A stretch of 64,000 nucleotides of DNA, from the NCBI GenBank assembly GCA_037447655.1, contig JBBHKE010001577.1:173545-237544 (forward strand). The letters are read 5' to 3'. The notes under the pieces were generated by a model. That model was not told where the DNA came from, did no database searches, and saw only the letters and a list, made by a program, of their open reading frames with translations. Made by a program: the position numbers and the translations under genes. Source of the stretch: Zygnema cylindricum. Taxonomy: Eukaryota; Streptophyta; Zygnematophyceae; Zygnematales; Zygnemataceae. This document shows positions 549 through 60,299 of the stretch, piece by piece (positions within the stretch are counted from its first letter, which is position 1; each line of letters starts with the position of its first letter).

Positions 549-558
549 CACATTACAA

Positions 559-753
559 GTGCTTTTACACCATCGTAGTTCCCTATCTTTTCAAGCAATT
601 ACTCTCGAAGAGCGTTCCAGTCTTACCCCACACATCAGTTTTCTTGATAACAAGTTAGGTGTGTTCACAATTAATGGAGTGGCCCCAACTTTACCTCTCA
701 TGGACACAAGGGCAAAACCTATTATCCTAGATAACATTTTGCCACGAAAATAG
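559..753 (+). pseudogene. Ty3-A copy 1 protease fragment
   Basis: The frame encodes the region around a retroviral-type aspartic protease active site, seen as L-P-L-M-D-T-R-A-K-P-I-I-L. The canonical site is D-T/S-G-A, so the glycine is replaced by arginine. The same change is present in copy 2 (near 10810). The downstream part (lysine-rich, before about 860) is out of frame. The domain would process the gag-pol polyprotein. The identification rests on this short motif and on its position upstream of the methyltransferase and RT. Confidence 0.65.
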
Positions 754-1311
754 GTATTACGACACATACACTACAACCCACTACCACTTGTTTGTTGCCT
801 TCCGCAGGAACCACAGAACCAGTCCTAGGTATGAAAAATGAACCACTATGTTTTCAATTTCAGTGCCAATCAGAATTTGATTTCGCAAAATATACGCTCA
901 CGCCTTGGTCACCAAGTGTAAGGATTATGAGTGCTTCGTCGACCAAGACATCATTTTACGAGTAGGGTGAGGGTTGATATGTACCATCAAACGTTTACGT
1001 ACAGACCAAACAATTTTCCCAACTGCAAAGTTTGCTTACCTCTTATCTCAGCTCGGCAACCCATTCCTACTACGGCTCATTCACCGTTTGTCTTGCCAGC
1101 CTATGTTTCAATTGGCATACGTGCTGATATTTTTGAATCTTTAACAGCGGAAGAAATCTAACCAGAACCCTCAAGGATTCTGGAATTATTTGGCACCCTA
1201 GGTTTTATTCAAGACTCTTTAGATTTTGATAGATTGTAGAAGTTTAGTGTACCAATTGAATTATTCAGTATTTCAAATCCACCTGCGATTGAGAGAGATC
1301 CCACCGGGTTT

Positions 1312-2335
1312 ATGCCGATTAAATGCAAACAATTCAGTTTACAACCTAACCCAAACGGTCTTGTTATCTTAGAACTGTTTGCACGAATAGGTACCACACT
1401 TCTCTCATGGCTTAGGAACGCTATTCTAATCAAGCAGTATTATTCCGTAGATATTGACCCTTTGGCTAGATGCGCTCAGTTACACCATTGTCAAATCTTA
1501 CATAAACAATACCCTCACCTCCCACCGCAGTCTGGGTTTTATAGTATGCATTCAGCTTTACCACAGGATATCCGTCTAATAGGTAATCACCACCTGGCAA
1601 AGTTAGAACCACTCCATCTCTTTTTTGCTGGATGGGAATATCACGGTATGTCTCGAGCTTGGAAGGGTTTAGGTGTAACAGATCCACGCACTAAACTGTT
1701 ATTTGAGGTAGTGCGTCTTATCCATTTCTTTTAATCGCTGAACCCTCCCTTTGGATACGTTTTAGAAAACGTTGCGGCTCATAATGACCCCCGACCTACG
1801 GTTCTCGTAGATTACAAACGTATTGAATCATTAGTTGGACCCCCACTAATAATTTTGATGTCGCACGTCATGGGTTGCAGGCCCACTAGGTTCGTTCCAA
1901 GTGGACTAATCTAGTGGACATAGGCCGGCTCCGGGAAGCTAACCTTGCTGTTCGACCACCTAAACTTTTCATTTAAAAAGCACTTCTTCCATTTTATAAG
2001 GTCCAAACATGTGTCTAAACAGTCTATCCCCTTGCATTTTGTCTTAACACCCCTAGCTAGCCATTACGTGCACTTCCTCAACTAGTCGCATATCTAAAAT
2101 CCCATTTATATTCACATAACTGACCTGGTATGCTTCAGAACACTCATACAGGCAGTTTAGAAGAACCTACTGCTGTGGAGAGAGAACTTCTGCTCTATTT
2201 CATCCCAGGCACTACTGCTGCCCCACCACTAACTGAGCGGCAATGCTGAACCTTACTTATTCTGGTTATGGATCCTCAATCCCTATCATTTGTCTTCGGC
2301 ATAGGGTTTGGAGCTGGTGAATACGCACAGATTCA
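1312..2335 (+). pseudogene. Ty3-A copy 1 DNMT3-like cytosine-5 DNA methyltransferase
   Basis: A C5-methyltransferase fold can be followed across several frames. Motif I (S-adenosylmethionine binding) reads L-E-L-F-A-R-I-G-T near 1369, with one glycine lost. The motif IV region near 1627 reads A-G-W-E-Y-H-G-M-S, where the catalytic cysteine position is tyrosine. A K-G-L-G...L-F-E-V-V-R stretch follows, as in DNMT3/DRM enzymes. Motif VI L-E-N-V is intact at 1762-1773. Further on, Y-K-V-Q-T-C-V and a C-terminal V-M-D-P-Q-S block correspond to the target-recognition region and motif X area of DNMT3. Stops and shifts make this copy inactive. It lies between protease and RT, so it was part of pol and not a neighbouring gene. 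Confidence 0.8.
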
Positions 2336-2810
2336 TCCGTCTCAATCAACTTGGGGGGGGAATACACTATTCAAACACACTGCTTCTAAATCCTCACCTT
2401 CTCTTCGGGGTACAACTTTTCAGCTCTCTCTTTTTCCTCCTTCCGCCAAGTCTAACACAAATCATACTGTTTACGATTTCTTGGAAACTAGTCACATGAG
2501 TTGGTCCATCCTAGCATACACAACGGCTAGATCTCCGATACCAGTACGCGCAGTCCCACACTGGACAACTGCATTTCCATCTAGAAGTTGGCATCATGTA
2601 GTAAATTGTTTGGATCAGCTCCCAGTTGAGTATGATTTGGGATAGTCTTTAGTCCCGAATGAGCAGCTAGCGTTCGCACAGGCCATGGAAGCCATTACCA
2701 TTAAAACACCTGAAAAACCAACGTGGAAATTTGGGATGTGACTAACAAAACCAGAACACGAACTGTTAAATGGAGGTATAAACAAACACAAAAACGCGTT
2801 TGCTTACTCC

Positions 2811-3600
2811 ATGAAAGATTTTGGTCGACACACCACTTACAAAATGTCCATTGAACTGGAAGATGAGAGACCCATATTCAAACCCAAGAATTGTCTATCA
2901 CAAACCGAATGGGAAGCAGTGGATAAGCGATGCGCAGAGTTAGAAGAGGCAGGACTGATTTATAGGTCTGACTCCACCTTTGCGGAGCCTACCGTCATGC
3001 CTCGTAAAAAAGACGCAGAGGGGAATATTTTACAGAACGTCGTACGTGTGGGGATCAAAAACTAAATTCCCATACAATCCAAGACTGGCATCCAATACCT
3101 TTGGCGGAGGCCATTTTTGATCACGTTGGAGGGGCTAAATATTCAACATTCTACATCTACGACAAGGGTTTAACTAAATTGAAATAGAGAAGAAACACTG
3201 ACATAAGACTACATTTTGGGGAAGTTATGGGCGTTAGGAATGGTCAGTTATGGCCTTTGGCTTGAAAAATGCACTGACCGTATTCCAAAAGGTTATAGAC
3301 TCAGTCTAAAGGTGGTGTAAGTTTGCCTGTTGTTACATTGACGATTTAATCATTGCTTCAGCCTCTATAAAGGAACACGCACCGCATATAGAGTGGGTAT
3401 TAAAAGAGTTGAAAAAGGTGGGTATCAAATGTCATCCTGCCAAATGCATCTTTGGGGTTGAAGGGGTACCATATCTCCGGCATTTTATCTCATCCGAGGG
3501 AGTTACTCCGCTAAAAGCCAAGGTAGAGGCGATTAATGAACTATCCACCACAACATATTTAACGAGCCTACGTGCATTCTTAGGTTTTGGCTGATTATTA
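2811..3600 (+). pseudogene. Ty3-A copy 1 reverse transcriptase
   Basis: The frame at 2811-3065 carries the N-terminal RT region (L-S-Q-T-E-W-E-A-V-D, then L-I-Y-R-S-D-S-T-F-A-E-P). After frameshifts the catalytic Y-I-D-D is found at 3334-3345, and the thumb-side block G-V-E-G-V-P-Y-L-R-H-F-I-S-S-E-G at 3409-3594. This is the Ty3/gypsy RT pattern that copies element RNA into DNA. An in-frame TAA at 3307-3309, nine codons before Y-I-D-D, is shared with copy 2. Confidence 0.85.
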
Positions 3601-4230
3601 TCAGAGGTTTGTTTCTTCGTTTAGCACGATCACATCCCCACTAAATGAACACATAAAAAAATCAGCGTCGTTTACTTGGAGACCCTCGCAGATTGAGGCA
3701 TTCCAGGGATTAGAAAAGGCACTATCCACCGCTCATATTCTCCGTCCACCAAATCACAAGTTACCATTTTGCCTACAGACAGACTTTGGTAAGCTTGGTA
3801 TTGCCGCCATCCTAGCTCACCGTGAGCTTACAGGTGAGAAATACGTGGTGGCTTATGCTAGACAAGCAACAATCAAGCAGAGTCAAACTACAGTCATTAT
3901 GAGGGGGAGTGCTTGGATGCCGTTTGGAGAATTGTGCATTTCCGCCATTACCTTTATGGTAAGACTTTTACTCTTCTTACTGACCATCAACCATTGCATT
4001 GGCTCATGACCAATGACAAACTATACGGCAAGTTAGCCCGTTGGTCTCTTATTTTGGAGGACTACGATATGAAGATCATCCATCGACTTGGGCTCCCCTG
4101 TTTGAATGCCGACGGTCTTTCTCAAAACCCTTTACAAAATTCTGCCGATAATGGAGTGCCACATGATTCTGATGACGAACCACTTGCATCCCTGTGTGTT
4201 GGAGCACACCTGGTCTACATTTTTTCGGGT
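3587..4230 (+). pseudogene. Ty3-A copy 1 RNase H
   Basis: Two overlapping frames give the RT-connection and RNase H region. First comes Y-Y-Q-R-F-V-S-S-F-S-T-I, then L-P-F-C-L-Q-T-D-F-G-K-L-G-I-A-A-I, then H-F-R-H-Y-L-Y-G-K-T-F-T-L-L-T-D-H-Q-P-L. The aspartates in the Q-T-D-F and L-T-D-H blocks are the expected catalytic positions of the gypsy RNase H, which removes template RNA. A frameshift near 3910-3990 separates the two parts. Confidence 0.8.
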
Positions 4231-4367
4231 CCTATAGTTCACAAAATTGAACACAATCCATGGCCGGACAACGCTTTGATCCTATTTTTATCCTCCCAGT
4301 CCTTTCGAAAGGCACCACACAAGGAGAGGAGGAGCGTGTTCGTAAAAGAGCTCAAAATTACTTATAG

Positions 4368-5470
4368 ATGGGAGGTTCTCTTATCTTCTTCCTTGCTGAT
4401 GGAAGTCATCGGCATGTTCCTCGGCCGACAGAACGCCTATCACTTATCGATCAGATTCAAACTGATCTGGCATATTATGGTACTAGACGGACTTTGAGTT
4501 TGGTACAGGCACGTTATTGGTGGTCGGGCATGCAGGCGAACGTAGCGGCCGTGTTACAAGAATGTAGCACATGTGACTAGTTGCGAACCTTGTTCTCTAA
4601 CCGTCAGACTACACTTCAAACTTTGCCTATCTGAAGTCTTTTTTACAGGTAGCGTGTGATCTGGCAGGTCCTTTTCCCATCTTGCAAAGGTGAAAGCAAT
4701 ACCTCATGATCATGATCAAGAATTTCAGCAAATGGGTGGAAGTGGTGGCCCTCGCGCATAAAACTGCCAAACTCACCACCACCGCTTCAAGGAGCATGTG
4801 CTCCTCCGATATGGAGCTCCAGCACAAGTCCTTACGCACCAAGAGACCCAGTTCCGTGGCAAATTTCAAGAAATGTTGGTTGAGGCGTTGATCGATCACC
4901 GTCGAACAAGTCGAGATCACTCACATGTTGACGGTTTGGCCGAGAGGGCGGTGGAAACGTTTAAGCGAGCTCTGCGTAAACATTGCTTGGAGAAACAATT
5001 ATTGTGTGGGATGAATCATAAGGTTATATTGTCATGGGTTATCACATGTCTGTACAGGCCATCTTAGCGAATATCAGCCATTATCATGTGTTATTTGGTC
5101 GACAACCACTGCTCGATAGGAATATACAAAAAGATACTAGTTTTCCTTTGCCGCTTATATCTGATTCTCTTTTTTTGGAAGAACTAACCAACCGGGCTTT
5201 GCTTTTTGCTAGGGAAATTCTAATGTCCTTTGAAAACTTGCAGATTGCTCAACATTGCGACTCCTTACGATTTGCAACAACTCAGTGTGGCAATTAGCGT
5301 CCACAATAAAAACCCTATCGGGTGGGGGACTACGTATATTTGCGTTGGCAAGCATTTGATCCCTCGACACGTATGTCTCGTCTCACATATTGAGGATCAC
5401 TAAAATCGACGCCAATGGATTATTAAGCCTACAATTGGCCGACACGCGGACTTTGCGAGAACATTAAAAA
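4368..5470 (+). pseudogene. Ty3-A copy 1 integrase
   Basis: The N-terminal H2C2 region includes L-S-L-V-Q-A-R-Y-W-W-S-G-M-Q and ends in C-S-T-C-D near 4575. The catalytic core follows in shifted frames: C-D-L-A-G-P-F-P near 4660, and D-G-L-A-E-R-A-V near 4933 with the last acidic residue. The core is cut by stops (for example TAG after C-S-T-C-D). A C-terminal stretch near 5300-5460 resembles the GPY/F-type tail seen before the PHD finger in copy 2. Its role was insertion of the cDNA into the genome. Confidence 0.8.
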
Positions 5471-5524
5471 AATTGTGCTCCATGCTACCTACCTCATCTT
5501 TCCCACAGTATAGATCCGTGGCGG

Positions 5525-5730
5525 ATGCCAATTACCGAGGTCACCAAGTGTCAGTTGTGTCGGTGGTCTGACGCAAAAACGATGATGCGTCCCTACGGCT
5601 ATTGCAATTTAGGATTTCACATCGAGTGTTTGGTCCCACTTTTGCATGCTATTCCGGCTGGACAATGGTATTTCCATGGATGCGCCGACCTACCGGCTGT
5701 CCTCCCAAGCTCCCTTGCAAGCTAACGAGC
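5525..5730 (+). pseudogene. Ty3-A copy 1 C-terminal PHD finger
   Basis: The frame reads C-Q-L-C near 5554, then Y-C-N-L-G-F-H-I-E-C and G-Q-W-Y-F-H-G-C. This fits a C4HC3 PHD zinc finger in which one ligand cysteine has mutated (C-D-Y-C in copy 2 is Y-G-Y-C here). PHD fingers usually bind histone tails, so in an integrase C-terminus the domain could steer integration to particular chromatin. The spacing and the closing W-x2-H-G-C support the family call. The target mark cannot be told from sequence. Confidence 0.75.
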
Positions 5731-5955
5731 TGGGGGGGGGGGAATTCCATCCTTTTTCCCTTTTTACCTACTAATCTTGTCTTTGTACTTTTATTTGTTT
5801 ATTTGTTTTTTGAGCTAATTCATTAATATTTATGTCACTATATATTCTTTGCCCTCTAGTTTTAGCATACATATGTGCAGTCCATACATTTTTAGCAACG
5901 CTAATTGGGTATGATGCATGTCATTGAACAGTTGTATGCTGATGCAGGACAGCAA
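5731..5955 (+). repeat. Ty3-A 3' untranslated segment
   Basis: A G-run (about 5731-5740), a likely polypurine tract, is followed by a T-rich stretch and then TTAGCATACATATGTGCAG. The block recurs downstream of copy 2, partly at 15824-15957 and more fully at 16363-16565. It therefore belongs to the element (3' UTR or start of the LTR). Confidence 0.6.
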
Positions 5956-8709: not shown

Positions 8710-9454
8710 GTGTGTTCTACATTTAGCTGCATTCGGATAGGTCAATCTTCTGGTTACATGCCAACGGACTGGAATGATTTACAGTTCCCGACTGGTACCA
8801 CCAAAAGCTCAGGTACTTACCATGGACCGCCAAGAGAGTCAATTACGGTTAGCTCCCCTCCGATATTTTTTCCAAACTCAGCAGTTCGGTCACAATATTT
8901 AGGATCACCCAGTCCGTCCAAATCTGTTTTTTCTTCTCTCCATACGTCTACGTCATCTGTGTCTTCATCTTCCACCCACAGTTCACAGTTCAGGTGAAGA
9001 TTCGAACACCGACTCACTTGACATACAAAGTCTAGGGCTACCGCCGTCAATTTTTTCTGTGAACACTACCATACACACTAATTCCGATCCTTCTAGCGTG
9101 GGCATGGTTTCATCCATCGACACCGGAGGAGGCAAACATCATTTTTATTTTTCTGGTCTCAAGGACACCATGTCTTTGTCACACTTTCGTATGCTTTTCA
9201 ATACCGAGATGCGGGACCTCGCATTCCGGTACCAAGACCGTTATGACCTTCGGGTTGCTTTTTCTTTACTAGGGAGATACCTCGGAGGATCTGCCCTATC
9301 CCTTTATACACGGAAATATGAGGACATTTGTGCTATGACTAAAATAGCACCCGCCTACTTCAGAGCTTTGGCCATAAGTGGCAGCCCCGAAATGAATCCT
9401 TTCCAACCCGCTGTGCCGGCAGTTTATGACTCCGCAGGCACCGGTTTCACCTGA
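8710..9454 (+). pseudogene. Ty3-A copy 2 gag N-terminal region
   Basis: Two frames cover this part. 8710-8997 is rich in serine and proline. 9059-9454 contains F-S-G-L-K-D-T-M-S-L-S-H-F and A-F-S-L-L-G-R-Y-L-G-G-S-A-L, the helical style of Ty3/gypsy capsid proteins in which a hydrophobic 'G-x-A' segment follows a Y-x-D-R-Y block. The frame then stops and resumes at 9561. Gag would form the particle that packages element RNA. The call rests mostly on position and the downstream knuckles. Confidence 0.55.
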
Positions 9455-9560
9455 AATACCTCAGATCCCTCATCAATTTGTTGTGGCGGCTAGGGTTAGT
9501 ATTCCCGCTAGACCTAAAATGCTGGTCCCTTTAAGAGATCCATTCTAATTAATTTTCGAT

Positions 9561-9887
9561 TTGTTACATGACGAGTATCGAATGCAGAATCCGGACCAAG
9601 TCAAAGAATTAATGAATTTTGAACGCAATCCGGGTGAAACTGCCCCGGCATTGCGGTCACGTATGGAAACTTTGCGTGAGGCCTTATCGGGTCTAATGTC
9701 AGAGGCTGAGGCGGTACAAAAATTTGTAGGTCAATTTCCCACACAATCTCGACGGTTCATTCAAAATCGTCTGACCGAAGCATATGGCTTTAAATTCACT
9801 TTCGAGCAGGCTGCAGAGTACGCTGTAAAGTATGAAATGCAGACCAGCTTGTGGGACGCTCACGAGTGGCCAAAACCTTCACCTTAA
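9561..9887 (+). pseudogene. Ty3-A copy 2 gag (capsid C-terminal part)
   Basis: The frame encodes a helical segment with L-L-H-D-E-Y-R near the start, then G-E-T-A-P-A-L-R-S-R-M-E-T-L and F-V-G-Q-F-P-T-Q-S-R-R-F-I. This pattern (a conserved aromatic/hydrophobic helix followed by 'V..F...P') is usual in retrotransposon gag proteins just before zinc knuckles. The frame is separated from the preceding gag piece by stops and a frameshift. Confidence 0.6.
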
Positions 9888-9989
9888 GATTACCATAATC
9901 CAAATCCTAACCAAAATCCTAACCCGAGCAACCATGGCCCAACCCAAGACCTCCAACGGCCCCTGCCATGGGATCTTTCTCGACGACGC

Positions 9990-10125
9990 TTGGAGTGCGT
10001 ATATGTTTCCGGTGCGGTCACAATGTTCACGACGCACGCAGCTTTCTAGAAAAGTCAGCCACGTGTACTCATTACAATGAAACAATTCATTACATACAGC
10101 GGTGTCATATTAAAAATCTGGATTT
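9990..10125 (+). pseudogene. Ty3-A copy 2 gag zinc knuckles
   Basis: Near 9993 the frame reads C-F-R-C-G-H-N-V-H-D-A-R, a CCHC knuckle whose last cysteine is arginine. Near 10063 it reads C-T-H-Y-N-E-T-I-H-Y-I-Q-R-C, a second knuckle with one cysteine changed to tyrosine. Paired knuckles bind element RNA for packaging. Both are damaged. Confidence 0.6.
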
Positions 10126-10527
10126 CAGTTATCAAAATCAAATTAAAACGGCGGTTTACCTGCTCGTTCGGCTAAATTGGTCACTCCACCGAAAGGGGAA
10201 GAGAAGGACACTCCCGCCAAAATCAGTAGGTGGGACCGAGGTAGAGCAGAGATGCAGACAACCATGGCGGCCATGATTGAAGAGGAGTATTTTGGGCTTA
10301 TGGCGCAGGTCAAACCGCAATTAATTGGAATGGCCCGAACCGTAGTCCATATGCCCTCTTTTGCTGGGCGATCTCTCCGATAATCAACCGTCCAACAGCG
10401 GGCAACTCTTTTCAAAGGGACTCCCGATCATAATCGTGAGTCTAAATCCATTAACACTCGCATACCATTATCTTTTGCTGAAGAACCTAAAACTCTTATC
10501 CCGCAAACAGCCTCTAGCATCACCGCT

Positions 10528-10870
10528 GTGGCCTTAACCATTCTAGAGGGGAGCATACAAGATACCAATAAGGTCAAAGAACGGTTAGCAATACTGTCCA
10601 TTATGCTCCCCGAATCGAATAGCGAGGCTAAATCCTCAGATCTAACTCAATCTGCACATGCATTACAAGCGCTTCAACACCATCGTAGTACCCTATCTCT
10701 TCAAGAAATTACTCTCGAAGAGCGTTCTAGTCTTACTCCACACATCAATTTTCTTGATAACAAATTGGGTATGTTCACAGTTAATGGGGTGGCCTGAACT
10801 TCACCTCCTATGGACACAAGGGCAAAACCCATTATCCTCGGATCAGATTTTGCCAAGAAAAAAGGTCTTA
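10528..10870 (+). pseudogene. Ty3-A copy 2 aspartic protease
   Basis: The 10528-10797 frame leads up to the active-site region (D-N-K-L-G-M-F-T-V-N-G-V-A), where a TGA interrupts it. Just after, the sequence reads M-D-T-R-A-K-P-I-I-L-G, then D-F-A-K-K-K-G-L-T. The D-T-R-A replaces the usual D-T-G-A, exactly as in copy 1. The protease would cut the gag-pol polyprotein. Confidence 0.7.
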
Positions 10871-11070
10871 CGGCACATACACTACAACCCACTACCACTC
10901 GTTTGTTGACTTCCGCATGAACCACAGAACCAGTCTTAGGTATGAAAAACGAACCATTATGTTTTCAATTTCAGTGCCAATCAAAATCCGATTTCGCAGA
11001 AATAAACGCCGCCAATACCAATTGAGGACATGAGGCTAGGTCGGCCAAGACATCATTTTCCTGTAGGAAT

Positions 11071-12370
11071 ATGCAAGATCAAACATTTTCGTATAGACCA
11101 AACAATTTTCCGAACCACAAAGTTTGCTTACCTCTTATCTCAGCTCGGCAACCCATTCCTACTACGGCTCATTCGGCGTTTGTCGTGCCAACCTATACTG
11201 CAGTTGGCAAAGGTGTTGATATTTTCAAATCTTTAACCGCGAAAGAAATCTTACCAGAACCCTCATGGATGCCGGATTTATTTGGCACCCAAGGTTTTAT
11301 TATTGACTCTTCAGATTTTGTTAGATTGTATAAGTTTACTGTACAGATTCCTTTATTCATTATTCCGGATCCACCCGCGATTGTAAGAGATCCCTCAGGG
11401 TTTCTGCCGATTAAATGGAAGCCAGTCAGTTTACAACCTAACCCGAATGGTCTTGTTATCTTAGACCTGTTTGCAGGAATAGGTACCACACTTCTCTCAT
11501 GCCTTAGGAACGGTATTCTAATTAAGCAGTAATATTCCATAGATATTAACCCTTTGGCTAGACGCGCTCAGTTGCACCACTGCCAAATCTTACATGAACA
11601 ATACCCTCACCTCCTACCGCAGTCTGCGTTTTATGGTATGCATTCAACTTTACCACAGGATATCCGTCTGATAGGTAATCACCGCCTGGCGGAGTTAGAA
11701 CCAATCGATCTCTTTTTTGCGGGATAGGAAATGTCACGATATGTCTCGAGCTGGGAAGGGTTTAGGTCTAGCATATTCGCGCACTATACTGTTCTTTGAG
11801 GTAGTGCGTCGTATCCATTTCTTTCAGTCGTTGAACCGTCCATTTGGATACGTTTTAAAAATCGTCGCGGCTCATACTGACCCCCGACCTACGGTTTTTC
11901 GCAGAATACAAACGTATCGAATCATTAATTGGACCCCCATTAATAATCGATGCCGCACATCATAGGTCGCTGGCCCACCGGGTTTGTTCCAAGTGGACTA
12001 ATTTGGTGGACATAGGCTGGCACCGGGAAGCTAACCTCGCTGTCCGACCACCTAAACTTTTCATTCAAGAAGCACTTCTTCCATTTCATAAGGTCCAGAC
12101 ATGTGTCCAGACAGACTATCCTCCTGCATTTTGTCTTAACACCATTGAACAGCCATTATGTGCACTTCCTACACTAGTCGCATATCCAAACTCCCATGCA
12201 TATTCACATAACGGACCTAGTTTCCTTCAAAACACTCATACAGGCAGTCTAGAAAAACCTACTGTTGCGGAGAGAGAACACCTGCTCCATTTCATCCAAG
12301 GCACTACCACTGCCCCAGGACTCACTGAGCGGTAGCGCTGCAACTTGGGTTATGGATCCTCAATCCATGT
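11071..12370 (+). pseudogene. Ty3-A copy 2 DNMT3-like cytosine-5 DNA methyltransferase
   Basis: The N-terminal extension (11071-11440) leads into motif I, L-D-L-F-A-G-I-G-T near 11461, which is intact and binds S-adenosylmethionine. The acidic Y-S-I-D-I-N block follows. The catalytic loop keeps its cysteine (K-C-H-D-M-S at 11729-11746) but is shifted by one inserted A and preceded by a TAG. A-G-K-G-L-G and I-L-F-F-E-V-V-R follow, as in DNMT3. The motif VI E-N-V is mutated here (L-K-I-V) but intact in copy 1. W-T-N-L near 12000 matches motif VIII, K-V-Q-T-C-V near 12090 the region before the target-recognition domain, and V-M-D-P-Q-S-M near 12354 the C-terminal block. The reaction would be methylation of C5 of cytosine in DNA. 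This copy is inactive. Confidence 0.85.
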
Positions 12371-12801
12371 CAGTTGTCTTGGGCATAGGGTTTGCAGTCG
12401 GTCGATACGCACAGAACCATCCGTCTCAATCAGCTTGGGGGGGAAATACACCATTCAAACATACTGCTTCTAAATGCTTACCTTCTCTTCAGGGTACAAC
12501 TTTTCAGCTCTCTCTGTTTACTCCTTCCGCCAAGTCTGACACAAATCATACAATTTACGATTTCTTGGAACCTAGTCACATGAGTTGGTCCATCCCAGCA
12601 TACACAGCGGCTAGATCTCTGATACCAGTACGAGCAGTCCCACACTGGACAACTGCATTTCTATGTAGAAGTTGGCATCATGTACTAAATTGTTCGCGTC
12701 AGCTTCCACTTGAGTATGAGTTGGGACAGTCTTTAGTCGCGAATGAGCAGCTAGCGCTCGCACAGGCCATGGAAGCGATTACCATCAACGCACATGAATA
12801 A
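12354..12801 (+). pseudogene. Ty3-A copy 2 methyltransferase-RT linker
   Basis: The frame starts at the methyltransferase C-terminus and continues through a stretch without a recognised domain, for example S-H-M-S-W-S-I-P-A-Y-T-A-A-R and L-A-Q-A-M-E-A-I-T-I. It ends about 90 bp before the RT frame. The matching copy 1 stretch is 2268-2645. The middle is unusually well preserved between the two copies, so it was probably translated. It could be a connector or a diverged domain. Confidence 0.5.
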
Positions 12802-12894
12802 CCAATGTGGAAATTTGGGACGTGACTAACAAAACCAGAACAGGAACTTTTAAATGGAGTTATAAACCAACACTAAAATGCGTTCGCTTACTCC

Positions 12895-13700
12895 ATGAAA
12901 GATTTGGGTCATCACACCATTTACAGAATGTCCAATAGCCTGGAAGATGATAGACCCATATTCAAACCCAAGCATCGTCTATCACAAACCGAATGGGAAG
13001 CAGTGGACAAACAATGCGCAGTGTTAGAAGAGGCAAGACTGATTTATAGGTCGGACTCCACCTTTGCAGCGCTTACCGTCATGCCTCGTAAAAGAGACAC
13101 GGAGGGGAATTTCACAAAATGTCGTATATGCAGGGACTATCGCGAACTGAATTTGCGTTCAATCCAGGACCGACATCCAATGCCTTTGGCAAAGTTCATT
13201 TTTGATCACGTTCGTGGGGCTAAATATTTCAGCATTCTGGATCTACGACAAGGGTTTAACCAAATTGAAATAGAGAAAAAACACCGACATAACACTGCAT
13301 TTTTGGGGAAGTGATGGGCGCTGGGAATGGCCAGTTATGGCTTTTGGCTTGATAAATGCACCGACTGTATTCCAAAAGGTTATGGACTAAGTCTAAGGGG
13401 GTTGTAAGTTTGCCCGATGTTACATTGACGATTTAATCATTGCTTCAGCCTCTATAGAGGAACACGCACCACATATAGAGTGGGTATTAAAAGAGTTGAA
13501 AAAGGTGGGTCTCAAATGTCATCCATCCAAATGCATCTTTGGGGCTGAAGGGTACCATATCTTGGGCATTTTATCTCATCCGAGGGAATTACTCCGATAG
13601 AAGCCAATGTAGAAGTGATCAATAAACTACCGGCCCGAACAGATTTAACGAGCCTGAGTGCATTCTTAGGTTTGGCTAATTATTATCAAGGGTTTGTTCT
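12895..13700 (+). pseudogene. Ty3-A copy 2 reverse transcriptase
   Basis: 12895-13314 is a long open piece with R-D-Y-R-E-L-N-L-R-S-I-Q-D-R-H-P-M-P and F-S-I-L-D-L-R-Q-G-F-N-Q-I, the fingers and catalytic motif A of a Ty3/gypsy RT. After frameshifts Y-I-D-D is at 13421-13432. The later block G-H-F-I-S-S-E-G-I-T-P and A-F-L-G-L-A-N-Y-Y lies at about 13560-13690. Two TAA codons (13388-13390 and 13394-13396) stand just before Y-I-D-D; the second is shared with copy 1. Confidence 0.88.
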
Positions 13701-14240
13701 TGGGTTTAGCACGCTCGCATCCCCACTAAATAAACACTTAAAAAAATTAGCGTCGCTTACTTGGGGACCCCTGTAGATTGAGGCATTCCAGGGATTAAAA
13801 AAGGCACTGTCCACCGCTCCCATTCTCCGTCCACCAAATCGTAAGTTACCATTTTGCCTACAGACAGACTTTGGTAAGCTTGGTAATGCTGCCATCCTAG
13901 CTCACCGTGAGCTAACAGGTGAGGAATACATGGTGGCTTATGCTAGACAAGCAACAATCAAGCAGAGTCAAACTACAGTAGTTATGAGGGGGAGTGTCTG
14001 GATGCTGTTTGGGGAATTGTGCATTTTCGCCATTACCTTTATGGCAAGACTTTCACTCTTTTTCCTTACCATCAACCATTGCATTGGCTCATGACCAATG
14101 ACAACCTATCCAACAAGGTAGCCCGTTGGGCTCTTATTTTGCGAGAATACGATATGGAGATCATCTATCGACATGTGCTCATTAGTTTGAATGCCGACGG
14201 TCTTTCCCGAACCCCTTACAAAATTCTGCCAATAATGGAG
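13700..14240 (+). pseudogene. Ty3-A copy 2 RNase H
   Basis: Reads P-F-C-L-Q-T-D-F-G-K-L-G-N-A-A-I-L-A near 13850, then H-F-R-H-Y-L-Y-G-K-T-F-T-L-F-P-Y-H-Q from 14019, where the usual T-D-H aspartate has become tyrosine. The last part, L-I-S-L-N-A-D-G-L-S-R, ends the domain near 14210. Frameshifts lie between the two parts. Confidence 0.78.
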
Positions 14241-14439
14241 TGCGATAAGATTTTGATGATGAACCACTTGCATCATTGTCTGCTGGAGCACACCTAGTCT
14301 ACAGTTTTTTGGGTCCCACAAATCACAAAATTGAATACGATCCATGGCGGGACAGCGCTTTGGTCCTATTTTTATCCACCCATTTCTTTTCGAACAGGCA
14401 CCACACTAGGAGAGGAGGAGCGTGTTCGTAAAAGAGCTC

Positions 14440-15100
14440 AAAATTACTTATAGATGGGAGGTTCCATTATCCGTCTCCTTGCATATGAAAGTCATCGGCA
14501 AGTTCCTCGGCTGAGAGAACGCATATCACTTATCGATCAGATTCATACTAATCTGCGACATTATGGTACTAAACGGACTTTGAGTTTGGTACAGGCATGT
14601 AATTGGTGGTAGGGCATGCTGGCAGACGTAGTGGCCGTGTTACAAGGATGTAGCATATGTGATTGGTTTCGGACCTCTTTCTCTAACCGTCAAACTACAC
14701 TTCGACCTTTGCATATCCGAGGTCTCTCCTATAGGTGGTCGTGTGATCTGGTAGGTCATTTTCTTGTCTCGCAAAGGGGCAACCAAAACCTCATGCTCAT
14801 GATCGAGAATTTTAGCAAATGGGTGGAAGTGGTCGCCCTTCGCATAAAACTGCCACACTCACCACCACCGCTTTCAAGGAGCAGGTGCTCCTCCGATTTG
14901 GAGCTCTAGCAGAAGTCCTTACGGACCAAGGGACCAAGTTCCGTAGCAAATTTCAAGAAATGTTGGAGGAGGCGTTGATCGATCACCATTGAACAAGTCG
15001 AGATCACCCCAGGCAGACGGTTTGGCCGAGAGGACGGTGCAAACATTTAAGCGGGCTCTGCATAAACATTGTTCTGGGAAATAGATTACTGTGTGGGATG
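14440..15100 (+). pseudogene. Ty3-A copy 2 integrase
   Basis: The zinc-binding N-terminus includes L-S-L-V-Q-A-C-N-W-W and ends with C-S-I-C-D near 14650. The core begins with S-C-D-L-V-G-H-F-L-V-S-Q-R-G near 14740 (first catalytic aspartate). The second aspartate lies near 14920 in another frame and the last acidic residue in A-D-G-L-A-E-R-T-V near 15018. The W-S-C-D-L and E-N-F-S-K-W-V-E-V-V blocks are typical of Ty3/gypsy integrases. Confidence 0.82.
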
Positions 15101-15314
15101 AATACTTGGGTTATATAGTCATAGGTTATCGCATGGCTGTACAGGCTAGCTTAGCAAATTTCAACCTTCTAATGTGTTGTTTGGTGGACAACCACTACTC
15201 GGTAGAAATATACAAAAAGTTGCTAATTTTCCTTTGCCGTTTATGTCTGATTCTCTTTTTTTGGAACAACTAACCAACCGGCTTTGCTTTTTGCTAGGGA
15301 AATTATAATGGCCT

Positions 15315-15800
15315 TTGAAAACTTGCAGATTGCTCAACATTGCGACTCCTTACAGTTTGCTAAAACTCACCGTGGCAGTTAGCAACCACAACAAAAACCT
15401 TATCGGGTGGGGGACTACGTATATTTGCGTCGCCAAACATTTGACACCCTTGACACGGATGTCTCGTCTTCATATTGAGGATCACCAAAATCGACTCCAA
15501 TGGATTATTAAGCCTAGAAGGGGCCGACACGCGGACTTTGCGAGAACATTCAAAAAATTGTGCTCCCTGCTACCTACCTGATCTCTTTCACAGTATGGAT
15601 CCGTGGCGGATTCCGATTACTGAGGCCACCGAGTGTCAGTTGTGTCGGCGGTCTGACGGAGAAACGACGATGCTTCTCTGCGACTATTGCAATCTAGAAT
15701 TTCACATGGAGTGCTTGGTCCCACCTTTGCACCCTATTCCGGCTGGACAGTAGTTCTGCCATGGATGTCGTGCCCTACAAGCTGTCCTTCCCAGCTCCCC
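15315..15800 (+). pseudogene. Ty3-A copy 2 integrase tail plus PHD finger
   Basis: The tail reads R-I-T-K-I-D-S-N-G-L-L-S-L-E-G-A-D near 15475, then H-S-K-N-C-A-P-C-Y-L-P-D-L. This short beta-rich segment precedes the finger. The PHD finger follows: C-Q-L-C-R-R-S-D-G-E (from 15634), L-L-C-D-Y-C-N-L-E-F-H-M-E-C, then P-A-G-Q and, after a TAG in the tryptophan position, F/S-C-H-G-C near 15760. This is a complete C4HC3 ligand series apart from the nonsense change. From memory, algal and plant gypsy elements of this kind carry a PHD finger here in place of a chromodomain. Confidence 0.85.
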
Positions 15801-15823
15801 TGTAGGCTAAGGAGCTTGTGGGG

Positions 15824-16565
15824 GGGGGATTCCATCCTTTTTCCCTCTCTACCTACCAAACTTGTCGTTGTACTTTTATTTGATTGTTTCTTTTCTTGAG
15901 CCGATTCATTAATAATTCTGATGTTATATATTCTTTGCCCTTTGGTTTTGGCATAAATTGTAAATTATTCTAAATGCGTGTGGAATATTGACGCGTCTTT
16001 CGCGTTGAATGTTCATACGCATTTGTCGTGTTGAGATGTGAAATTATATATGATTCATATGGTGGGGTAAGGGAATACGAAGTCAGGTGGTGTTGATTGA
16101 AGATCTGGTGAGTTTATGGCATTAATGATTAGATTAAACCAGCCCCAATTAACGACTCCGAGCGGCTCTTTATATCTTTATGATTCAAACGCGACCACGT
16201 ATCCCAGCCGGAACCTCGAGGTTCATGCATTATTTTTGTAGCGTAGGGAGGGTTTTTATCCTCGAGGTGTAGATGTAAGGCTTCTCGAGGGGGGCACGTA
16301 GCGGCCACCTCTACAAACTGGCAGCGTTTGTACATAGAAAGCTGCTTGCTCAAAGACATATAATTCCATCATTTTTCCCTCTCTACCTGCCAAACTTGTC
16401 GTTGTACTTTTATTTGTTTGTTTGTTTTCTTGAGCCGATTCATTAATATTTCTGATGTTATATATTATTTGCCCTCTGGTTTTGGCATAAATATGTGCGA
16501 TTCCATACATTCTTGGCATCGCTAATTGGGTGTGATGCACGTCATTTCACGGTTGTATGTTCATG
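15824..16565 (+). repeat. Ty3-A copy 2 3' region with two versions of the 3' segment
   Basis: A G-run (15822-15829) precedes the T-rich 3' segment at 15830-15957. After about 400 bp the same segment recurs at 16363-16565 in fuller form (GTTTTGGCATAAATATGTGC onwards), matching copy 1 (5731-5955). Between them lies the direct-repeat piece 16215-16362. Either an LTR-bearing duplication or a second element end is embedded here. Confidence 0.55.
16215..16362 (+). repeat. Direct repeat, right partner of 7014-7160
   Basis: Shares GATGTAAGGCTTC, CACGTAGCGGCCACCTCTA and TTGTACATAGAAAGCTGCTTG-like sequence with 7014-7160. It is a candidate 3' LTR fragment of Ty3-A copy 2. Confidence 0.5.
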
Positions 16566-20183: not shown

Positions 20184-20324
20184 ACTAGAATCGTATCTAT
20201 CGCAGTTGCTCTATCCTGTACAGAATCACATTAAAAATATCAGACGTTGCGTTGTCCGTACGGACCATATCAAATATAATCGTGGTTGCCTTGTCCTGTC
20301 TGTGTTGCAGCTTCGCTGCTGCGT

Positions 20325-20560
20325 TGCTCTGCTGCTGCGCTGCTCTGCTGTACATCAGCTGCTCTGGTGTATAGCAGCTGCTCTGCTGTATAGCAGCTGC
20401 TCTGCTGTATAGCAGCTGCTCTGTTGTATAGCAGCTGCTCTGCTGTATAGCAGTTGCTCTGCTGTATAGCAGGTGCTCTGCTGTATAGCAGCTGCGTTGC
20501 TCTGTTGTATAGCAGCTGCGCTGCTCTGTCTGTATAGCAGCTGCGTTGTTTTTTCTGTAA
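20325..20560. repeat. Minisatellite B in the copia 3' LTR
   Basis: A unit of about 19 bp, GCAGCTGCTCTGCTGTATA, repeated about ten times. Each unit holds the palindrome CAGCTG. The same array in the 5' LTR (about 29185-29375) has fewer units, which explains most of the LTR length difference. Confidence 0.85.
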
Positions 20561-27288: not shown

Positions 27289-28632
27289 TTAATCCATGCG
27301 ATACATCTTGCTACTATCTCTAGTACCTGTAACCGCAACCTTGCCATTTTTGCTAACAACTTGCCGACCATTTTTCAAATTAACCTTAAAGCCTTTGCTC
27401 TCTACCAACGATGTAGAAAACAGATTTTTCTTAAAGTCAGGCACAAATAAGACATTCTGAAGAGTCCTTTCAACTGCTTTTCCTTCTACATCAACTAGTA
27501 AGGACACATCACCCACAGCACGAGTTTGGACACTCATTCCACAAGTATAATAAATATTTTTCTCCGGCGTTGCTTTCAGATTTTTGAAGATGGCCTTGTT
27601 CCAGCACATGTGGGCTGACGCTCCTGTATCCATTATCCATCCGGGGTCCTTTGCGCCCTCCATTGCAGCCGCAATAGCGAAGAGATCCGTATCGTCCTCC
27701 GTAGAAACCGTCAAAGTCTCGTCTTGGAGAGACGAAGAAGCCGAAAATAATGCATTTCCACGAGATGTAGTCCCCGTGAAACCTTTGTAAAACCGGCTTT
27801 GTTGCCATCCCGGCCGGTATAAACCTGTATCGTTAGCTTTTTTAAGCTTAGGACAAAATTTGTATCCATGACCTCTCTCACTACAATAAAAGCATGCATT
27901 GTTGGATTGTCTATTTCCACCTTGATTAAACTGTCTGAACTGATTAAACTGATTCCTTTGCTGATGAAACTGTCCTTTTCTCTCAAAGTCTGAATTAAAA
28001 GCCTCTACTTGCTCAACATTGAGAATATTAGATGTAGCTTCCTCCTCTAGTAAAATATTGATGGCTAACTGTAAAGTCCAGCTAGCTTTATCTTTTTGTT
28101 TGAGCATGTCAGATGCTCCTTTCATACTACGAGGGAGACCCCTCATGAGCAATGCCGCCTGCTGAAAAAGAGGAAACACCCCACCTGCACAAGCATGTGC
28201 ATCTACAAAGATACGAAATTTGTTAGAATATTTAGCCATTGTACCGCCAGTGTACTTATAGTCCCAAATTTTCTCAGCCAATAGAAGTTCTTCCTAAACA
28301 TTGGCCTTTTCATAATCACTTTTAAGAGATTTCCAGATATCAATTGCTTTTTTCATCTTTATCCGAGACATACCTAAGTCCTCAGATATACAAAATTTCA
28401 GAATAGAATGGGCTTGCGTATTTTTCTTAGACCATGACGGATCAGATTCATCCAGCGAACCATCCAAGATATCCCAAAGATTGACACTTTCAAAATGTGT
28501 TTCCACCATATCCGCCCAGTAAACATACTTATCCCCGGAAAAGATAGGAATTCTTGATGAGAGGCCCATAACCTGTTGTTCTACAACCACCGGTGCAGGT
28601 GGAGGGGCAGCAGTAGTAGTAGAAGTAGACAT
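27289..28632 (-). pseudogene. Copia gag and protease
   Basis: The frame is continuous from ATG at 28632 to 27289 except for one TAG at about 28294. The N-terminus M-S-T-S-T-T-T-A-A-P-P-P-A-P lies inside the 5' LTR, and the frame then crosses the primer-binding site (E-Q-Q-V-M-G-L). The capsid region follows, with I-L-L-E-E-E-A-T near 28040. The CCHC knuckle C-F-Y-C-S-E-R-G-H-G-Y-K-F-C is near 27880 and the protease site W-I-M-D-T-G-A-S-A-H-M near 27620. It is among the best preserved parts of the element. Confidence 0.93.
28561..28573 (-). other. Copia primer-binding site, half-tRNA type, inside gag
   Basis: On the minus strand GGTTATGGGCCTC directly follows the 5' LTR end (AACAACA). It matches the initiator tRNA-Met anticodon arm and is read as gag codons. 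Confidence 0.85.
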
Positions 28633-29396
28633 GATACACTCTCAGAAAGCTATCAAGAATCCTACCAAACAACTGTTCTTAAGTGCTCACCAATTTTATA
28701 CAAGCATCCAAACCTCACAAAACTCTATCAGAATATAGAGTAGCTTAAACACTAATAACTCCCAAAGTTATAGCACAATTGACCCGACAACACTCAAGAT
28801 ATAATACTCAGAAGTTTCCCAAAAATTGTCTGCAGTTTTACTACTTGGAAGTCTGGATACATAATATGTTCTGAGTCCTAAGTCTTATACTTGTGTTGAA
28901 CTGGCAACACCAGTGTACTTGAGAGGTACGTCAAACCACCAAGCTACCACTAATCTGTCAAGCTACCATTGAGCTATCACTAAGCTACCACTGAGCTATC
29001 ACTAAGCTACCACTGAGTTACCCACTAAGTTACCACTGAGTTCCCACTAAGTTGACTAGAATCGTATCTATCGCAGTTGCTCTATCCTGTACAGAATCAC
29101 ATTAAGAATATCAGACGTTGCGTTATCCGTACGGACCATATCAAATATAATCGTGGTTGCCTTGTCCTGTCTGTGTTGCAGCTTCGCTGCTGCGCTACTG
29201 CTGCTGCGCTGCTCTGCTGCTGCGCTGCTCTGCTGTATAGCAGCTACTGTGCTGTATAGCAGTTGCCCTGCTGTATAGCAGCTGCGTTGCTCTGTTGTAT
29301 AGCAGCTGCGCTGCTCTGTTTGTATAGCAGCTGCGCTGCTTTGACTGTAAAGCAGCTGCGCTGCTCAGAGGCTGAAAGCTTTCCAAAAAGACAACA
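28574..29396 (-). repeat. Copia 5' LTR (823 bp)
   Basis: On the minus strand it runs from TGTTGTCTTTTTGG at 29396 to GTAGAACAACA at 28574. It contains the gag ATG (28630-28632) and about 19 codons. It is shorter than the 3' LTR mainly through fewer units in the minisatellite at about 29185-29375. Confidence 0.92.
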
Positions 29397-30555
29397 CCGT
29401 GCACCTGTTCTCTTCGTCAAAAAGAAGGACGGAACGTTGAGGATGTGTGTCAACTATCGTAGTCTAAACAAGATTACGGTGAAGGATAAGTATCCGTTAC
29501 ATGTAATTTATGATTTGATAGATCGTTTGAAAGGCGCTAAATTATTTTCTTTGATTGATCTGCGTAGTGGCTTTAATCAGGTGCCAGTTAGAATTGAAGA
29601 TATTGATAAAAGTGCTTTGAAAACTAGAGCCGGTCATTTTGAATGGATAGTGATGCCATTTGGTTTGACGAATGCACCACCTACTAATCAAAAATTAATG
29701 AACCAAATATTTTCTGATTATATAGATGAGTTTGTTCAGGTGTTTATAGATGATATTTTAATTTACAGAGAACCTAAAGAACAACATGTAATTCATCTAA
29801 GGAAAGTGTTGGAAAGGTTAAGGGAAAGAAAGTTATTTGGAAAATTGTCGAAATCCAGCTTTCTTCAAAGTGAACAATTATTTTTGGGACATAAAGTTAG
29901 TGGGGAAGGTGTTAAAACATATCCATCCAAAATTACCGCAATACAAAATTGGAAGCAACCCACTAATGTCATAGAAAGTAGATCATTTTTGGGATTTGCC
30001 ACTTATTACAGGAAATTTATCAATAACTTTAGTATGATCGCCGCACCATTGACGGATTTACTTCGGGAGAAGGAGACGTTTGTGTGGGGAGCCGATCAAG
30101 AGAGAGCTTTCGATGAACTAAAAGGGAAGATGACCTCTGCCCTTACACTAATGTATCTTGATATTTGTGGGAAATTTGAAATTATGATCACCACTGATGC
30201 ATCTCATAAAGGTTTAGGGACAGTCATAGGTCAAAAAGTTGGTAAACATTTTCATCCTATTGATTTTGAGTCCAGGAATTTTAATGATGCTGAAAAGAAC
30301 TATCCAGCATAGGAAAAATAATTACTTGCAATTGTTCATACATTGGTGAAATGGCGTTTTTATTTGCATAATAAATAATTTACAGTTCACTGTGATAATA
30401 AGGCACTCTCCTATTTACATATATTAAGTGATGCACAGATTATGACTGGCGGACAAGTTAGGTGGATGCAGAAATTAGCATATTTCAAATTTAATGTTAA
30501 ACATATTCCTGGAAAGACAAATGTTGTCGCGGATCCTTTAAGTAGATGTTTTTAA
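29397..30555 (+). pseudogene. Ty3-B reverse transcriptase and RNase H
   Basis: The frame is open to 30312. It shows L-R-M-C-V-N-Y-R-S-L-N-K-I-T, L-F-S-L-I-D-L-R-S-G-F-N-Q-V, M-P-F-G-L-T-N-A-P (one P for A downstream) and the catalytic F-I-D-D-I-L-I-Y (from 29743). RNase H begins with T-T-D-A-S-H-K-G-L-G near 30195 and ends with G-K-T-N-V-V-A-D-P-L-S-R near 30540, after TAG at about 30310 and TAA at about 30375. The order and motifs are textbook Ty3/gypsy. Confidence 0.93.
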
Positions 30556-30729
30556 ATAAGTGTGATGGTTCGGGATGAATTGTTTTTAAATGCTGTTAGA
30601 AATGGTTATGATAAAGATCCTTATTTTGCTGTGATTTGCAATAATATTTCGGGAGGGAATTCTAACCCATTGAAAGAGAGGCATGTCAAAAACTTTAGAA
30701 TAGAAGATGGTTTACTGTAATTGCGAACA

Positions 30730-31878
30730 GAGGATAGGTTATGCATTCCTGAAATGGGAGACTTAAGAAAACAACTTTTATAACAAGCCCATGAGCATTT
30801 AGGATATCTAAGTCGAGATAAAACTCTTAGTCGGTTGCAAAGTAGATTGTTTTGGCCAGGGATGGCAAAGGAGGTGTCGAAACACATGGAAAGTTGTGAC
30901 CCTTGCCAACAGAGTAAATCTAGTAACCACAAACTTAAAGGTATCTTAAAACCTTTATTTATCCCCGAAAGACCATGGGAATCTGTCAGTATGGATTTTA
31001 TTGTCAGATTACCAGCTACATCTAGAAGAAATGACAATATCATGGTCGTAGTCGATAGGTTCAGTAAAATGGCAATCTTTATCCCTTGCAAAACTACTCA
31101 TTCAGTTGTAGATATTGCAAAGTTATATTTTGAGAACGTGGTCAGCTATCATGGAGTCCCTCTGTCTATTGTCAGTGATAGGGATTCTAAATTTACGTCT
31201 GCATTTTGGAAAGAACTGCAGCAAAATTTAGGCACTGAATTAAAAATAAGTACCTCTTATCATCCTTTCACAGATGGACACACAGAAAAGATGAACCGTA
31301 CACTGGAAGAAATGCTTATGACTGTTTGCAGTGGAGTTTAGAACACATGGGAATCTAAACTGCCATTAATGGAATTTGCATACAACTCATGTAAACATGC
31401 TTAGTACAAGATTCTCACCGTTTGAAGTTGCATACAGATACCAATGGAGAGTAGTATTAGACTTAATAACATGGGTCACTCAAGAGAATAGGGGTTGTGG
31501 AACGGAATTTTGGGAATACATTCAAACGGTTTGGAAAACAGTCTAGGATGCATTACTGGAGGCACAAAGGGGCAAGAATTAAATGCTAACCGCAAAAAGG
31601 GTGATTGGGTGTTACGCACAGGTGACAAGGTTTGGCTTTCTACAAAGCATTATAGGTGCAAGATCGAGGGACAATCGGATACTACAGGGAAATTTGCTCC
31701 TAAGTACATTGGACCATTTACTGTAATCCATGTGATATCGTCAGTTATTCCCAAATTAGACTTTCTGCCTTCAACAAAAAATTCATCCAGTAATACACAT
31801 CAGTTAATTGAAACCAGGGAATCTTTGACCAACAGAAGGAGAATTGGAATTGAATCCCTTAATAATTATAAAACCTGA
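30730..31878 (+). pseudogene. Ty3-B integrase
   Basis: The H2C2 zinc region (H-E-H-L-G-Y-L...C-D-P-C-Q-Q-S-K) spans about 30790-30915. The catalytic core follows: S-M-D-F-I-V near 30990, V-S-D-R-D-S-K-F near 31171 and D-G-H-T-E-K-M-N-R-T near 31275, the D-D-E triad. A TAG at about 31339 and frame changes near 31400-31490 break it. 31495-31878 holds the GPY/F-type segment K-Y-I-G-P-F-T-V-I-H-V-I. It inserts the cDNA. Confidence 0.92.
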
Positions 31879-41245: not shown

Positions 41246-41976
41246 GGAGATAGAAAGCTCGAAGGGAAGATTCAGTAGTCGCGATTCAACAGCCGTGCTT
41301 GGAATTTGGAAGATTCAGGATAAAGTGATCATGGCTACTCCTTTTCAAACCGGTATTGTCTCCTTCAATTCGGAAGTACAAATTCGTACATCCTCGTACG
41401 GAGATTTTGAAGGATAGTACCAGGAAGGACAGAAAGATCTCCGGCTAACAGTATATTTGTAAGCTGGCAAGACGTTGTACGGATACATCTGATAAGAAGT
41501 TTCACTGGTCGTGTGAACGCTTCAGTCTTCAGACAGTGTGAACGCCCTCATTGCCATTCTGAAAACGAGTGCAAAATGTGAACAAACCATCTAAGTGACA
41601 ATGTGGTGTGAATGGCCTAGTGTGAAATGGTCAGAGAAAAAAAATGGAAACATCGAAGAATGAGGTACGGTTTTTCTGCGGAAAAGGACATTCCAGAATG
41701 GACGAAAAGAAAACATAAACAACCAAATCCGGCAAAAAATTAGGCAAACGACAAAAAAAATCCCCCTGTTAAAAAACTTCTTCACTAAAGAGGTTCACCG
41801 CTCACTGAGAATAAAATATTCATAACAAAAAAAAAAACACGAAAAAATAATGCAAAGGAATAAGAAAAGTATTATTCAAAAATTAACAACGCTAATATAG
41901 TGCTGGTTCCTTCTCCCCTTCAGTCAAAAAATAGCGTTAATAAACAATTATCTTTCTTGAACCTAATCCTCTAAAC
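41246..41976. promoter_or_regulatory. Upstream region of the host gene
   Basis: The 730 bp between the gene's ATG and the MITE1 insertion should hold its 5' UTR and promoter (minus strand). No clear TATA box was picked out. A MITE1 copy bounds it at 41977. Confidence 0.35.
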
Positions 41977-42427
41977 CATAGTTCAAAAGTAGGTGAAAGT
42001 ACGCCCATACAATATGCCTATTGAACGCAAAACATACACTATGACCTTAAGACCCATATTGTATTGGTAGCAAAATGAAAAAAAAAAGTAACATGGTTGA
42101 GTTGCACATCGATCGATATAGAATTAAACGTCATGTCTAATTTTTTAAAAACATTCGGACAAAAAAAAATGTGAGTTTTGAGGTATTTTTTATTTAAACC
42201 GTCAGATTTGGACGATCAGACGGTCGCTGATAAAAGTAGCAATCTAAGAAGATCACATGAAAAGCCCAGAACACAACTTACGATATGACTATCGTCAGAT
42301 TTGGACGATCGGACGGTCGCTGGTCAAAGTAGCGATTTAAGAAGATCACATGAAAAGCCTATAACACAACTCACGATAAAGGCGCCGACCAAAGGCCTAC
42401 AATAGAAACGCCTACTTTGGAACTATG
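41977..42427 (+). mobile_element. MITE1 copy A
   Basis: CATAGTTCAAAAGTAGG at the start and CCTACTTTGGAACTATG at the end form terminal inverted repeats. The 8-bp duplication CTCTAAAC (41969-41976, 42428-42435) is perfect. It has the internal tandem duplication of the GATCAAAGTAGCGAT...AGAAGATCACATG block also seen in copy F. Confidence 0.93.
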
Positions 42428-42435
42428 CTCTAAAC

Positions 42436-45919: not shown

Positions 45920-46210
45920 GTACATGTGATCGTCTTAGATCGCTAATTTGATCAACGACCGTCCGATCCTCAAAATCTGACGGTTTAAATAAAAAAAAAC
46001 CTAAAATCTCAAAGATTTTTTTTTTGTCCGAATGTTTTTCAAAATTTAGACGTGACGTTTAATTCTCTATCGATCGATGTGCAACTGAACCCTGTTACTA
46101 TTTTTTTTTCATTTTGCGACCAATACAATATGGGTCTTAAGGTCATATTGTATGTTTTACATACAATAAGCATATTGTATGGGCCTACTTTCACCTACTT
46201 TTGAACTATG
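45920..46210 (-). mobile_element. MITE1 copy B (truncated)
   Basis: The reverse orientation ends with CACCTACTTTTGAACTATG at 46210. The inner end lacks its terminal repeat, cut near 45920 next to the MITE2 fragment. Confidence 0.8.
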
Positions 46211-46308
46211 GTTCTTATGTTTACGAAATTAAATGCCATTGAGTTCGTCCACGGTTTTGTATTAAACAGTTACACGTGTGACGAGATGAACAGTCCATGT
46301 ACAATACA
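46211..46308 (+). repeat. 98-bp direct repeat, right copy
   Basis: Begins exactly where MITE1 copy B ends and differs from 45633-45730 at only a few bases. Confidence 0.85.
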
Positions 46309-60291: not shown

Positions 60292-60299
60292 CGTCAAAC

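Follow-up and report, generated by a model that had tools for sequence, protein, structure and literature searches.

Does a retrotransposon of the alga Zygnema cylindricum carry its own DNA methyltransferase (DNMT)? The question is raised by a 64,000-nucleotide stretch of contig JBBHKE010001577.1 (the window, by which we mean the whole stretch analysed), where an earlier note had read a DNMT3-like enzyme between the protease (PR) and reverse transcriptase (RT) of a Ty3/gypsy pol gene. Two Ty3/gypsy copies lie in the window in the same orientation, with 86.5% identity across 5.3 kb (551-5872 versus 10661-15958), and in both a C5-methyltransferase is read between protease and RT. The motifs claimed for copy 2 are seen in order in its translations, spread over three frames, i.e. 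LVILDLFAGIGTT, then in another frame ECHDMSRAGKGLGL...FFEVVRRIHFF, and in a third frame SKWTNLVDIG with the C-terminal block. Copy 1 has the same placement and, as had also been stated, retains motif VI (Glu-Asn-Val) within YVLENVAAHND. Based on frameshift-aware alignment to DNMT3A and on tblastn with the DNMT of an intact relative, locus L021, the domain maps to 11410-12453 in copy 2 (plus strand, pieces 65-83% identical) and to 1318-2366 in copy 1 (plus strand, 76% and 75%). The span first proposed (11071-12370) is therefore not methyltransferase throughout, 11071-11409 being linker.

Both window copies are dead remnants, as judged from their stops and frameshifts and, in copy 1, from the loss of the catalytic Cys. 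The DNMT of copy 2 is split among several frames with 3 stops; that of copy 1 contains 7 stops over two frames, and its motif IV reads WEYHGMS, with Tyr replacing the catalytic Cys (EYHGMS). The protease motif DTG, as found in L021, is DTR in both. What is left of copy 1 (551-5872, plus strand) is the decayed pol part and 3' region, with the remnant of a PHD finger (5549-5671, plus strand; PF00628 E 0.012, under the cut-off). Copy 2, also on the plus strand, comprises a decayed gag region (8758-10599, limits set by eye; the open reading frame 9059-9454 matches the N-terminal part of L021), a protease region (10600-11070, limits set by eye, translation compared with L021), the DNMT, an open reading frame for the start of RT (12895-13314; the DNA at 12890-13900 matches at least 40 genome places) and a C4HC3 PHD finger with one stop (15634-15768), read from the sequence and intact in its L021 counterpart (PF00628 1.5e-9).

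Taken alone, the window pieces score weakly in profile searches. Three give PF00145 at E 0.0095-0.13, all under the Pfam cut-off, and for the remaining DNMT pieces there is either no Pfam match or a different family with an E value no better than 0.009. Single pieces searched against PDB give chance-like matches only, and a 377-residue piece spanning the protease and the first DNMT half has no match in the protein collection at E 0.001; in contrast, protein relatives are retrieved with a profile and with a relative's long open frame. We aligned the window DNA to the human DNMT3A catalytic domain with a frameshift-tolerant method, using 200 shuffles per copy and ranking 126 window tiles. Copy 2 scores 85 (shuffles: mean 33.9, maximum 48; Gumbel p 3e-7) and copy 1 scores 56 (mean 32.7, maximum 46; p 1e-4), and the two rank first and second among all tiles. 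At the level of sequence, the predicted methyltransferase identity is settled through relatives. In the PF00145 check suggested in the earlier note the window pieces stay under the cut-off while relatives pass it, and the DNMT of L021 (PF00145 E 2e-11) is 65-83% identical, piece by piece, to both window copies.

These relatives come from the 352.8-Mb assembly of the same genome (2689 contigs). A PF00145 search gave 782 candidates, of which 123 were scored, all 123 over the C5-methylase cut-off and with open frames of up to 2395 amino acids. Searched as DNA, the window DNMT finds at least 40 genome places at 78-100% identity, its own two copies included. We opened 33 distinct PF00145 places (20 as 3.3-kb loci and 20 as 10-kb loci, 7 common to both), and 32 of them match one of two families whose DNMTs are about 42% identical; only L007 matches neither. 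An intact relative, as the earlier note had hoped for, is L021, a single open frame of 2395 amino acids that encodes gag, PR, DNMT, RT, RNase H (RH), integrase (INT) and a PHD finger. Pfam recognizes its CCHC, DNMT, RT, RNase H, integrase and PHD domains (the two key E values are given above), and a DTG protease motif lies upstream of the DNMT. The PR-RT-RH-INT order and the rve integrase are those of Ty3/gypsy elements; no chromodomain follows the integrase in the L021 frame (Pfam, E 0.01), and the PHD finger is found there instead.

The earlier claim that the enzyme belongs to the element is supported. Among loci selected for having a DNMT, all 13 family-1 10-kb loci (the family of the window copies) show gag-PR-DNMT-RT-RH-INT, with PHD in 11 of 13, and family 2 shows DNMT-RT-RH in 6 of 7 loci with integrase and PHD in 5 of 7, its gag and protease having been sought with family-1 queries alone. 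An RT-led search finds a DNMT match at the expected distance in at least 27 of 40 places, including the window's two; the remaining 13 leave partly standing the possibility, raised in the same note, of copies with protease joined straight to RT. Direct repeats 91-100% identical occur at both ends of 7 of the 13 family-1 loci, cut by the region ends (L026 has an inverted repeat pair instead). L021 and L028 have terminal repeats that agree at 100% across at least 361-533 nt, and thus some insertions are recent.

Which class of enzyme is this? The best match among the DNMT classes tested is the DNMT3 type, in line with the earlier assignment, and among the solved structures listed as matches DNMT3A scores best, with DNMT2 far below DNMT3A/3B. 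A relative from Closterium has a fold like that of DNMT3A/3B, with about 20% identity in the aligned fold. The rearrangement of DRM enzymes (motifs IX-X before motif I) is absent from the alignment, where motif I comes first and IX-X last, and in DRM chains the match is confined to C-terminal residues 225-351, which align with profile positions 11-140. All 17 aligned element domains retain the catalytic Cys, preceded by Glu or Pro, and in a 7-row alignment this Cys is invariant together with E150 and N151 of motif VI and R190/R192 (R-x-R) of motif VIII.

To our knowledge, Pro-Cys is near-universal at motif IV of C5 enzymes. The pattern Gly-x-x-Cys-Gln-Gly was run on 38 distinct loci and matched 37, L007 giving none. 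Family 2 and its near kin, some of them only 51-65% like family 2 proper, have Pro-Cys in 18 of 18 places, whereas all 19 family-1 places found have Glu-Cys. Ten of these encode the Glu by GAA and 9 by GAG, so the residue has been kept despite codon drift. The Trp position of the motif is Ser in L033 and a stop in L004. Glu-Cys extends beyond this genome: 15 of 22 profile hits in the protein collection were inspected, and the 14 with a readable motif IV divide into 8 Glu-Cys and 6 Pro-Cys, near-copies included, while 40 long relatives comprise 34 Glu-Cys, 5 Pro-Cys and 1 Asp-Cys.

Among the profile hits, Closterium sp. NIES-53/54 and Klebsormidium nitens are named as sources, with a named bacterial enzyme in the weak tail; the rest are mostly metagenome proteins. 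Together with the CHG signal described below, these nearest named kin (Closterium, Klebsormidium) would suggest a streptophyte host; an LFY profile gave no match, its control being silent as well. One hit, P0009, is labelled as an Obscuribacterales metagenome-assembled genome; it lies on a 2.4-kb contig and may be mislabelled. The only match on a viral contig, L049, was rejected as kin by reading, being a phage-type Dcm beside several phage-like frames. The 40 long relatives span 1326-3574 amino acids, with a precomputed PHD in 29, and two are from Haematococcus lacustris (P0040 shows the full order). They reveal a second architecture: 26 have RT-RH-DNMT-INT-PHD and 6 the same without a PHD motif, compared to 3 with DNMT-RT-RH-INT (one with PHD) and 5 partial. 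It was also observed that P0033-P0066, from Haematococcus and many metagenomes, are Ty3 polyproteins in which the same DNMT type lies between RNase H and integrase, in most cases with a PHD finger behind it.

We then compared the histories of DNMT and RT in 35 sequences having both domains (7 versus 28 by order). Both trees split the two domain orders with support 100/100, and the DNMT and RT distances correlate (r 0.78 overall, 0.81 within order B; 0 of 2000 permutations each). From these concordant trees and correlated distances the DNMT seems to have been passed down together with its element as both groups diversified. The window itself holds a second gypsy element (29263-31341, plus strand), apparently DNMT-free, whose RT falls on the A side of the two-order RT tree on a long branch.

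Substitution patterns point to purifying selection on the DNMT domain. The ratio of nonsynonymous to synonymous substitution (dN/dS) has a median of 0.17 in family 1 (range 0.11-0.36; 7 of 36 pairs usable, 9 copies) and 0.25 in family 2 (26 of 36 pairs, 9 copies), compared to 0.07 (7 of 36 pairs) and 0.21 (6 of 10 pairs) for RT; pairs beyond dS 0.05-2 were dropped, and the pairs are not mutually independent.

Taken together, the domain, its place, its multi-copy spread, the purifying selection on it and its history shared with RT show a DNMT3-type cytosine-5 methyltransferase as a lasting component of an autonomous Ty3/gypsy long terminal repeat (LTR) retrotransposon (gag-PR-DNMT-RT-RH-INT-PHD). 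We consider it moderately probable that this element methylates its own cDNA and is guided at integration by the PHD finger. The element protease would cut the polyprotein, and the DNMT, packed beside RT in the particle, would methylate the double-stranded cDNA no later than at integration, letting a new copy enter the genome already marked like host DNA. The PHD finger behind the integrase could bind the histone H3 tail and steer integration to chromatin without active marks, as chromodomains do in chromoviruses; several of the nearest solved PHD fingers read H3 unmethylated at K4. The methylation step is modelled on a published proposal for SymbioDIRS elements and the PHD step on the analogy with chromodomains. 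More tentatively, the elements may belong to an old clade of green-algal and streptophyte Ty3 elements that has kept a putative DNMT3-derived Glu-Cys writer, together with a PHD reader on the integrase and with the writer at two alternative pol sites; Glu-Cys might then mark a variant form of C5 catalysis, possibly adapted to cDNA or an RNA:DNA hybrid.

Several observations weigh against methylation of the cDNA by the element's own enzyme. Family 1 carries Glu-Cys, not Pro-Cys, at every place found, and this may affect catalysis. The placement of the element DNMTs relative to DNMT3A and bacterial enzymes is not firm (support 63/99, with a very long DNMT3A branch). The domain of the K. nitens Gypsy element gave no methylation when expressed in yeast, a test that its authors call inconclusive because DNMT3B was inactive too, according to the part of the source available (PMC5890265). 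C-to-T differences between the window copies, uncorrected for codon effects, amount to 14.3% at CG, 14.1% at CHG and 6.1% at CHH sites (Fisher 2e-12 and 1e-11), a pattern compatible with methylated copies but not specific to any one enzyme, and host enzymes alone could produce such CG/CHG decay; in a pool of four other repeat pairs, which are shorter and more similar, the C-to-T excess is not significant (20/418, 21/375, 47/1166). There is also no clear footprint of self-methylation in CG depletion. The observed/expected ratio is 0.87-0.94 in intact family-1 frames and 0.74-0.80 in the window copies; family 1 thus lies under the 1.06 of the remaining window as a whole, whereas the window's DNMT-free elements (0.61-0.87) and host-gene region (0.57) are no higher than family 1. 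Three family-2 frames have lower values (0.62-0.67), but the DNMT-free elements of the window are equally low.

The replacement of Pro-Cys by Glu-Cys, in all family-1 places, 8 of 14 readable profile hits and 34 of 40 long relatives, together with the negative yeast test in the available part of PMC5890265, would also suit a domain that no longer methylates, its Glu-Cys forms retaining their fold to bind nucleic acid or to serve as a partner of RT, in packaging, processivity or cofactor sensing. We regard this as unlikely, since a mere binding module has no need to retain the catalytic Cys, the motif VI Glu-Asn and the motif VIII R-x-R, all of which are conserved. Because the DNMT adjoins RT in the polyprotein, and because RNA methylation has been proposed for dinoflagellate LINE (long interspersed nuclear element) enzymes in the same paper as far as available (PMC5890265), the substrate might instead be the element transcript, primer tRNA or an RNA:DNA hybrid rather than finished cDNA; this seems improbable, as the closest kin in sequence and fold are DNMT3A/3B, with DNMT2 far lower.

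A defence role suggested for retrotransposon-borne methylases in the accessible part of PMC6338049 would have the enzyme act on the host, methylating rival elements, viruses or host genes as defence or as hijacked silencing. We find this quite doubtful, because the present data give no link to host targets and the DNMT position in pol favours action within the particle. Chance resemblance or a nested host gene, to which the weak Pfam scores of the lone window pieces might point, is already refuted by the frameshift alignment, the 123 scored places, the L021 frame, the order in 13 of 13 loci, the DNMT3A match, the 40 long relatives and the DNMT-RT distance correlation. DNA methylation normally silences transposons. 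An element lineage that has kept a methylase throughout its diversification, congruent with RT, probably profits from doing so. With two architectures, a PHD finger, and natural Glu-Cys and Pro-Cys forms together in one genome, one can ask directly where the benefit lies and whether C5 chemistry can do without the proline usual in motif IV.

Elsewhere in the window, an open frame of 832 amino acids (49025-51523, plus strand) has a reverse transcriptase domain (PF00078 9.6e-18) of non-LTR-type look. A tandem 19-nt repeat (GCTGCTCTGCTGTATAGCA) occurs at 20320-20528 and 28574-29365, and the segment 19703-20482 adjoining it is 93% identical to 28574-29365. A family of short repeats resembling miniature inverted-repeat transposable elements is present in both orientations (41973-42428, 45923-46213, 55828-56161, 56506-56827, 60296-60760 and 62143-62406).

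How does this element compare with known systems? The charophyte precedent mentioned in the earlier note is real. The nearest published kind, KnitGypsy-Dnmt3 of Klebsormidium nitens (de Mendoza et al. 2018), is described, in the available part of the paper, as an LTR Gypsy element with a non-rearranged Dnmt3-type domain in its Pol frame under purifying selection (PMC5890265), and the basic idea of a DNMT3 in Gypsy pol is therefore not new. A Dnmt3-type domain inside Gypsy Pol is common to both; the K. nitens protein KFL_000540020 is a significant profile hit (38% identity) in which, by eye, the DNMT is followed by the RT start, in a gene model without motif IV. The main text of that paper, as available, contains no occurrence of 'PHD', and a figure legend gives KnitGypsy-Dnmt3 DIRS-like repeats (PMC5890265), whereas the terminal direct repeats of the present elements look like ordinary LTRs, their ends being cut. 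According to the available parts of three papers, dinoflagellate SymbioDIRS-Dnmt3 and SymbioLINE-Dnmt have likewise captured a DNMT, the SymbioDIRS enzymes methylating CG in yeast (PMC5890265), streptophyte LTR elements, written as Copia, hold DNMT3 (PMC12344493, from 2025), and land plants are said to lack such transposons (PMC6338049); the portions seen of PMC8226279 and PMC9033089 have nothing bearing on these elements. The dinoflagellate elements differ in being of the DIRS and LINE classes, with other polymerases and integrases.

In listings of the open literature, which leave subscription journals, Repbase and Dfam outside our scope, we recognized no paper describing a DNMT combined with a PHD finger, Glu-Cys at motif IV or the architecture seen in chlorophytes. 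Beyond the print found, the new features are thus the PHD finger after the integrase, the Glu-Cys motif, the DNMT between RNase H and integrase, including in Haematococcus lacustris, and the parallel histories of DNMT and RT. Chromoviruses are Ty3/gypsy elements with a chromodomain after the integrase, and so likewise have a chromatin-reading module at this position; the present elements have a PHD finger instead and an extra DNMT. DNMT3A, for its part, combines its methylase with an H3 reader, the PHD-like ADD domain. The element DNMT has the fold, the motif order and the C-terminal block in common with animal DNMT3A/3B, but forms a separate line within a retroelement polyprotein, at about 20% identity and with Glu-Cys in family 1.
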